Shown in pieces: positions 35,768-39,526 of a DNA stretch of 45,497 nt. The notes beneath the pieces are model-generated. The model worked only from the letters and a program-made list of their open reading frames with translations. It did not search any database and was not told where the DNA came from. Position 1 is the first letter of the stretch. Each line of letters starts with the position of its first letter. The translations under genes were made by a program, and so were the position numbers. Location of the stretch: the NCBI GenBank assembly GCA_028289565.1, contig JANQPE010000031.1, positions 1-45,497 of the forward strand, written 5' to 3'. This DNA comes from Parerythrobacter sp. GTDB taxonomy: Bacteria; Pseudomonadota; Alphaproteobacteria; Sphingomonadales; Sphingomonadaceae.

Positions 35768-38403
<2,636 letters not shown>

Positions 38404-38602
38404 TCATTCCCCCGTCTCTACTTATCCACAGGGTGAGTCCAAGAGGACTCCGCGTCAAGGAATGAATCATCGGCGATCATGGTTAACACCACCCTAATCG
38501 TGAAAGAACGAAAAGAGTCCCCCACAAGATATTGAGACTCGCCCATTTTGTGGACTCAATATGATGCGGTGTTGCGCGAAGGACTCGGAGTTGCGCCGAT
38601 CG
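38404..38602. promoter_or_regulatory. ccrM upstream region with GANTC cluster, DnaA box and CtrA-like box
   Basis: GANTC at 38435, 38446, 38464, 38515, 38536, 38553 and 38582; TTATCCACA at 38422-38430; TTAA-N7-CTAA at 38483-38497; 8-bp inverted repeat ATATTGAG/CTCAATAT at 38529-38562. Confidence 0.75.
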
Positions 38603-39526
38603 TCAGGCGAACAGCACTGCGACATAGGCCGCGAACGTGGCGACCAGCACGATACCGATGATCCGGCCGATACGCTTCGCCCGCCACAGCACCAGGGCCA
38701 GCACCGATGCCGCCAGGACCAGCAGCGGCAATTCGAAATCGGTCAACTCCGTTGGCAATGGACCCGGTGCGATCACCATCGTCGTGCCACCGATCAGCAA
38801 TATGTTGTAGATGTTCGATCCAACGACATTACCCAACGCGAGTCCCGGCTTCCCGCGGAATGCGGCCGCGATCGACGCTGCGAGTTCGGGCAGCGAGGTT
38901 CCCACGGCGACGACCGTGAGGCCAATCACCGTCTCGCTCACGCCGGCAAGCCGCGCAAGGTCGATCGCGCCCGTGACAAGCGCCTGACCGCCGACAACCA
39001 GCGCCGCGAGCCCGGCCAGGAATGCCAGCATCGCAAGCCCGATATGCAGCGGCGGAGAGCCGTCCGCTTCGCCCTCTTCCTGTGCACGGGGGTGATTGTA
39101 TCGCCAATAGACATAGGCGACGATCGCCAGCAGCAGTGCGATGCCGGTCCACGTTCCAGAAAGTTGCAACCATGCCAGCATCGCCAGAATCACGGTCGCC
39201 ACCAATGCGACATTGGCATCGCGGCGGCCGAGGCCCGTCAGTGCGATCGGCATCACCACGGCTGTCACGCCAAGGATCAGCAATGAGTTCGACAGGTTCG
39301 AACCGACGATATTGCCCCAGGCGATACCCGGGGAGCCGAGCAGCGCCGCTTCGACGCTTGCCACCATTTCCGGCATCGATGTCGCAAAACCGACGATGAC
39401 CAATCCCGTCACCAGGTTGGATACGCCGAGCCGCCGGGCGATGCCGACCGAACCCCGGACCAGGAAGTCACCGCCCAGGGCGAGCCCGAAAAGGCCCGCC
39501 AGGACCAGCAATATCGCACTTTCCAT
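38603..39526 (-). CDS. Calcium/sodium antiporter (CaCA family, YrbG-like)
   Basis: GFATSMPEMVASVEAALLGSPGIAWGNIVGSNLSN and VGTSLPELAASIAAAFRGKPGLALGNVVGSNIYNI alpha repeats. Confidence 0.93.
   Translation of the reverse strand: MESAILLVLAGLFGLALGGDFLVRGSVGIARRLGVSNLVTGLVIVGFATSMPEMVASVEAALLGSPGIAWGNIVGSNLSNSLLILGVTAVVMPIALTGLGRRDANVALVATVILAMLAWLQLSGTWTGIALLLAIVAYVYWRYNHPRAQEEGEADGSPPLHIGLAMLAFLAGLAALVVGGQALVTGAIDLARLAGVSETVIGLTVVAVGTSLPELAASIAAAFRGKPGLALGNVVGSNIYNILLIGGTTMVIAPGPLPTELTDFELPLLVLAASVLALVLWRAKRIGRIIGIVLVATFAAYVAVLFA

Follow-up and report, generated by a model that had tools for sequence, protein, structure and literature searches.

The seven GANTC sites upstream of the methyltransferase gene ccrM in a Parerythrobacter genome are best read, with a probability of about 0.55, as parts of a composite methylation-sensing promoter, one that would be licensed by hemimethylation and would accept repressor inputs. 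By its sequence the array is composite, made up of a core promoter, a single site upstream of the -35 element and a distal module with NrdR-like boxes. This promoter architecture is firm at the level of sequence, and from it we infer each of the regulatory steps set out below. The first-pass annotation of this DNA had suggested that the sites form a strong methylation feedback switch for ccrM. A regulatory role is indeed very likely, given the fixed positions of the sites, their recurrence across the class and the locking of one of them to the promoter, but the idea of many sites acting as one switch holds only in part, since the seven GANTC split into at least three modules. Only the proximal pair appears to be placed where it could gate RNA polymerase directly; the number of sites is high because most of them belong to a distal, family-level module.

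Position and density of the GANTC sites

The array fills the 199-bp gap that separates ccrM, whose start codon is at 38401-38403 on the minus strand, from the end of the next gene upstream, a Na/Ca exchanger (Table 1). All seven sites lie within 152 bp (38435-38586), and a recount placed each of them exactly where it had first been annotated. The methyltransferase downstream of the array is, judging by its sequence, CcrM: the product has a Pfam N6_N4_Mtase domain (8.8e-65) and a C-terminal RAMA domain (1.2e-21) and is similar to the Caulobacter CcrM structure 6pbd (E = 1.7e-151), which bears out the gene identity originally assigned. Its score against the NCBIfam CcrM model is 608 bits, under that model's cut-off of 830 bits. 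The exchanger gene is present at just 24 of 80 ccrM loci, yet the array is retained; since the adjoining upstream gene varies between genomes, the GANTC block belongs to ccrM.

Table 1. Features of the ccrM upstream region and its flanking genes, in order from ccrM outwards. Retention is given for the 79 aligned sequences, distances in the core are relative to the predicted start point or to TTGAC.
Feature	Position	Strand	GANTC retained (n = 79)	Remarks
ccrM, adenine-N6 methyltransferase of GANTC, 374 aa	37279-38403	-		N6_N4_Mtase and RAMA domains
DnaA box TTATCCACA, perfect	38422-38430	+		overlaps last -10 base and predicted start point
Predicted weak -10 element CACCCT	38430-38435	-		-11A and -7T retained
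Locked GANTC (GACTC), -16 to -12	38435-38439	-	78	final C is first base of the -10
Spacer GANTC (GAGTC), between -35 and -10	38446-38450	-	69, within about 8 columns	floats +7 to +10
-35 element TTGACG	38453-38458	-		from alignment; TTGAC anchor in 80/81 close relatives
GANTC (GATTC) just upstream of -35	38464-38468	-	7	
CtrA half-site-like TTAACCAT	38479-38486	-		putative
Distal GANTC (GACTC), outer 3' site of module	38515-38519	-	55, exact column	
NrdR-like box B TCTCAATATCTTGTGG	38522-38537	-		from motif enrichment
Distal GANTC (GAGTC), inner edge of box B	38536-38540	-	74, slightly shifted	2-bp shift in the window
Distal GANTC (GAGTC), inner edge of box A	38553-38557	-	73	
Weaker NrdR-like box A ACTCAATATGATGCGG	38554-38569	+		32 bp from box B
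Distal GANTC (GAGTC), outer 5' site	38582-38586	-	78	edge of conserved block
Na/Ca exchanger gene, upstream neighbour	38603-39526	-		its end bounds the intergenic region

The real background of GANTC is lower than the one site per 256 bp assumed at first. The window, that is, the whole 45,497-bp stretch of DNA analysed, holds 84 GANTC against 231 expected from dinucleotide shuffles, so that some 0.28 sites are expected per 152 bp; the Poisson chance of at least seven in a given stretch of this length is about 2e-8. The host genome is a draft of 148 contigs, 85% complete, and a direct count over 324 kb of it gave 692 sites, with the ccrM-upstream array as the densest 152-bp stretch. The runner-up holds six GANTC (contig C69) and all remaining stretches in the 324 kb hold four or fewer. 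This ranking is conservative because 12 of the sampled contigs were preselected for holding GANTC triplets. The local excess claimed in the first-pass annotation therefore stands, the flanking regions being without comparable density and the array ranking first in the sampled host DNA. A genome-wide search of the host for three closely spaced GANTC returned 29 triplets, three of them at the ccrM locus.

The six-site cluster of the runner-up (L202:6491-6640) lies downstream of a guaB-like gene. An Rfam search of the ccrM upstream region gave no match, and no structural element is claimed for it, the single-stranded DNA fold of the region being only mildly stable (z -1.77).

Conservation in close relatives and across the class

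The close-relative set consists of 80 ccrM loci of other genomes, mostly from Erythrobacteraceae genera, and of 81 with the window; the alignment holds 79 Erythrobacteraceae-type sequences, window included. The GANTC sites are retained in these relatives, not lost, and typically lie at -187, -158, -138, -119, -50 and -39 from the start codon. The bases of the GANTC sites are more conserved than the rest of the block (0.851 against 0.679). The conserved block begins at the distal-most GANTC and ends near the DnaA box, with conservation at background level farther upstream. Each of 67 genomes of the family has a single copy of a 19-mer taken from the gene-proximal end of the block; outside the family this 19-mer has a single match, with two mismatches, in another family.

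A CcrM homologue is found in 110 of 153 genomes of the class and in 106 of 111 genomes of the order, and 80 ccrM upstream stretches from class and order were retrieved for comparison. GANTC clusters precede ccrM in most of these, throughout the Alphaproteobacteria. Per 250 bp upstream of ccrM there are 3.92 sites in the class, 5.47 in the order and 5.83 in the close relatives, compared with 0.34, 0.33 and 0.29, respectively, in the flanks. Because most sites hold fixed positions in the 79 aligned sequences and the clustering recurs class-wide, the array is not a product of chance. The densest array seen, at locus L175 (genome G124), has 11 GANTC in about 150 bp, from about -263 to -116 relative to the ccrM match.

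The core promoter and its locked GANTC

The core reads as a sigma70-type promoter, with a TTGAC -35 element, a 17-bp spacer and a weak -10 of the form CANNNT. The two proximal GANTC sites belong to this core, which takes the motif form TTGAC-N14-GANTC-A-N3-T, and GANTC is thus placed within a core promoter, as in methylation-regulated promoters of the CcrM/GcrA type. Counted from the first T of TTGAC, the ‘locked’ GANTC is at exactly +19 in 24 of 25 promoters from the class, 26 of 28 from the order and all 80 from the close-relative set, and every one of the 24 anchored class genomes has an A at +24 and a T at +28. Class and order promoters often have a GANTC at -13 to -21 from TTGAC, though the corresponding site in the window, just upstream of the -35, is seldom shared by its relatives.

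The full core motif is present at ccrM in 24 of 40 class genomes, 21 of 40 order genomes and 72 of the 81 close relatives, and it occurs once in the pooled flanks that served as control (1.14 Mb, both strands counted). A genome-wide search with the double-GANTC pattern gave 37 matches directly upstream of ccrM in 80 genomes (compared by hand). The core motif is missing in 14-16 of the 40 class genomes, and some ccrM promoters are nearly without GANTC; the class counts are slightly low because one stretch (G402), whose core promoter is visible in the double-site search, was retrieved 1 kb off. In two class genomes (L115 in G308 and L145 in G351) the ccrM promoter keeps GANTC-A-N3-T but has a CtrA-type TTAACC pair where the TTGAC -35 would be, which suggests an activator swap on a conserved -10.

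DnaA, CtrA and the Caulobacter promoter

The DnaA box that overlaps the predicted start point, which is placed at about 38422-38424, is present in 76 of the 81 sequences of the close-relative set and in none of 81 control windows. The putative CtrA half-site is found in 39 of 81 close relatives, in 9 of 40 order genomes and in no control window, and the full CtrA site, TTAA-N7-TTAA, occurs in none of the 81 sequences of the close-relative set, window included. Brilli et al. (PMC2877005) noted that DnaA motifs accompany ccrM chiefly in the absence of CtrA sites, without concluding anything about methylation. A replication origin, as might be read from a DnaA box beside dense methylation sites, was considered for the region and dropped, since the core is the class-wide ccrM promoter.

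A methylation-gated ccrM promoter is already known or inferred in Caulobacter, where, in the published account, expression of ccrM requires hemimethylated DNA and the production of CcrM ceases upon methylation (PMC2217572), and where the methylation state of GANTC most probably affects ccrM (PMC3973325). The CtrA-activated promoter of Caulobacter crescentus, known here by description, drives the same gene, contains promoter GANTC and is thought to be methylation-dependent in its expression, and the class genome nearest to Caulobacter CcrM (74% identity) has GANTC-A-N3-T. In the promoter described here, in contrast, a TTGAC -35 replaces the full CtrA site, the GANTC sites number seven, a DnaA box lies over the predicted start and a paired-box module is found distally.

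The distal module and its NrdR-like boxes

NrdR is the dATP-sensing repressor of ribonucleotide reductase genes, and its box has the consensus acaCwAtATaTwGtgt. The spacings of the distal GANTC, about 29-20-19, recur across the family around ATATTGAGTC...GACTCAATATCTTGTG, a sequence that resembles this consensus; box A matches the consensus at 12 of 16 positions when scored by hand. An NrdR-like motif is enriched upstream of ccrM in the class and the order, where it beats all 100 permuted motifs, and pairs of boxes 30-34 bp apart occur in 13 of 40 order genomes against a mean of 0.40. In the close-relative set, as shared ancestry would lead one to expect, one permuted motif equalled the real motif when the lower threshold was used. 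Second boxes in the relatives peak at 32-33 bp, a spacing near the geometry published for NrdR, in which 15-16 bp separate the boxes (PMC12051234).

Elsewhere, the motif is found upstream of nrdA in two genomes and of nrdJ in one, and the nrdA promoters of the window's own family carry box-like pairs 32-34 bp apart, with a centre different from that of the ccrM boxes. Of eight family genomes searched for the distal box, the host and five relatives had it at ccrM; the readable matches elsewhere in these eight genomes fell mostly in coding sequence and none was seen at a ribonucleotide reductase gene. The NrdR reading therefore rests on other families and on the spacing, and with these we lean towards regarding the distal boxes as NrdR boxes. 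In an NrdR-regulated promoter two boxes are expected about 31-33 bp apart from centre to centre; the spacing and the enrichment at ccrM agree with this, but box A of the window is weak and the nrdA boxes of the family have another centre. Ribonucleotide reductase promoters under NrdR control have, like the ccrM block, paired palindromic ACACAATATCTTGTGT-like boxes about three helical turns apart, but the ccrM block lies upstream of a DNA methyltransferase gene and has GANTC on the inner edges of its boxes. No report of a link between NrdR and CcrM was found in the open-access literature searched.

NrdR-like boxes were also seen, in one genome each, upstream of a gene for a type IIA topoisomerase A subunit (L283) and of a gyrB-like gene (L277). 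These may widen the NrdR regulon in the Alphaproteobacteria.

GcrA and other explanations for the array

The array could in principle be chiefly a target of GcrA, which together with sigma70 would read methylated GANTC and activate ccrM, giving positive feedback by CcrM. We think this unlikely. GcrA is encoded in the host (contig C77) and is found in 72 of the 80 surveyed ccrM genomes, it has been described as working together with sigma70 at promoters that are methylated (PMC7987155), and the double-GANTC layout is common to ftsB and the ftsK-like gene. However, in eight ccrM-bearing genomes from eight families GcrA was found neither with Pfam at E up to 10, where nothing passed the cut-off, nor with a custom profile that strongly recovers both positive controls. 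GcrA is likely to be absent from these drafts (95-99% complete), and five of them retain the locked GANTC (G347, G362, G395, G415 and G417, the others being G334, G432 and G436). The sign of the effect also speaks against an activating role, since in the Caulobacter model methylation switches ccrM off. GcrA/CcrM-dependent sigma70 promoters of the ctrA P1, ftsZ and mipZ type do share GANTC between or beside the -35 and -10 and a replication-coupled methylation logic, but here the target is ccrM itself, one GANTC is held at a fixed distance class-wide, and the layout persists in the five genomes without detectable GcrA.

Less probable still is that the distal GANTC exist only as a consequence of the sites at which other proteins bind (NrdR-like ACTCAATAT, DnaA), so that their methylation would be irrelevant and only the core pair would matter. 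The overlap of the inner distal GANTC with palindromic boxes is what such an origin would produce, as is the box without GANTC found in some class genomes, but the two outer distal GANTC lie outside the boxes, and one of these is the site kept in all but one of the aligned sequences. That the sites cluster by chance, or that GANTC is simply commoner wherever intergenic DNA is AT-richer, is contradicted by the conservation and can be given almost no weight. The stretch upstream of ccrM is AT-richer (51% GC) and the intergenic regions of Alphaproteobacteria hold more GANTC than expected (PMC3973325), but the positions are fixed in nearly all relatives and the array recurs class-wide, whilst each of seven other reverse-palindromic pentamer classes occurs only 0-1 times in the region.

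A proposed hemimethylation-licensed promoter

In the composite methylation-sensing promoter that we favour, passage of the replication fork through ccrM would leave the core GANTC hemimethylated, a state in which RNA polymerase could use the weak promoter. CcrM would then restore full methylation and the promoter would close, a negative feedback that could limit the cell to one burst of CcrM per replication round. We take the direction of this effect from the Caulobacter model, and so from a model and one other species. The upstream edge of the melting bubble falls on the locked GANTC, and thus a methylation-sensitive opening or a contact between a methylation reader and sigma is plausible: methylation may act directly at this edge, or a reader such as GcrA may contact sigma70 there.

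To judge from its boxes, the distal module is most likely a binding site for NrdR, and DnaA is probably a repressor that covers the start point. Each of these proteins may compete with CcrM where GANTC overlaps or lies near its binding site. Proteins bound over GANTC can block CcrM locally, as described for MucR (PMC5172544), and this suggests a way in which an interaction of NrdR or DnaA with the array could work. Overall, the array is consistent with a gene that can sense its own methylation and keep it in check. A bolder proposal, which as a single joint claim we hold to be speculative and rather doubtful, is that ccrM belongs, so far unrecognised, to the NrdR regulon of many Alphaproteobacteria, that NrdR and CcrM compete at the inner-edge GANTC so that dATP and methylation are read jointly, and that the GANTC abutting the -10 acts on sigma70 opening without GcrA.

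It is the timing of CcrM that sets the methylation clock in the cell cycle of Alphaproteobacteria, and to our knowledge most work on the ccrM promoter itself has been done in Caulobacter. Three features appear to be new, namely the exact distance at which GANTC is locked to the -10, the retention of this lock in five genomes where no GcrA was detected, and the NrdR-like module. No report of the class-wide locked position or of the sphingomonad array was found in the open-access literature searched, and the novelty is provisional because that literature omits most subscription journals. With the class-wide GANTC locked to the -10, one can ask at the level of single bases whether adenine methylation gates sigma70 promoters by itself or needs GcrA to do so, and the genomes apparently lacking GcrA provide natural controls for direct versus GcrA-mediated gating. 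The NrdR-like module, if it is one, would tie the timing of methylation to nucleotide supply.

The layout of the ccrM core is also seen at other genes. At sixteen of the loci retrieved, the promoter of ftsB (DivIC family) has TTGAC and two GANTC, the second of them within an extended -10-like TGTGATTC, which makes it a second class-wide case; it is also the second recurrent match of the genome-wide search with the double-GANTC pattern. The double-GANTC layout likewise occurs upstream of an ftsK-like gene, identified by eye, in the host (contig C91) and in one relative.
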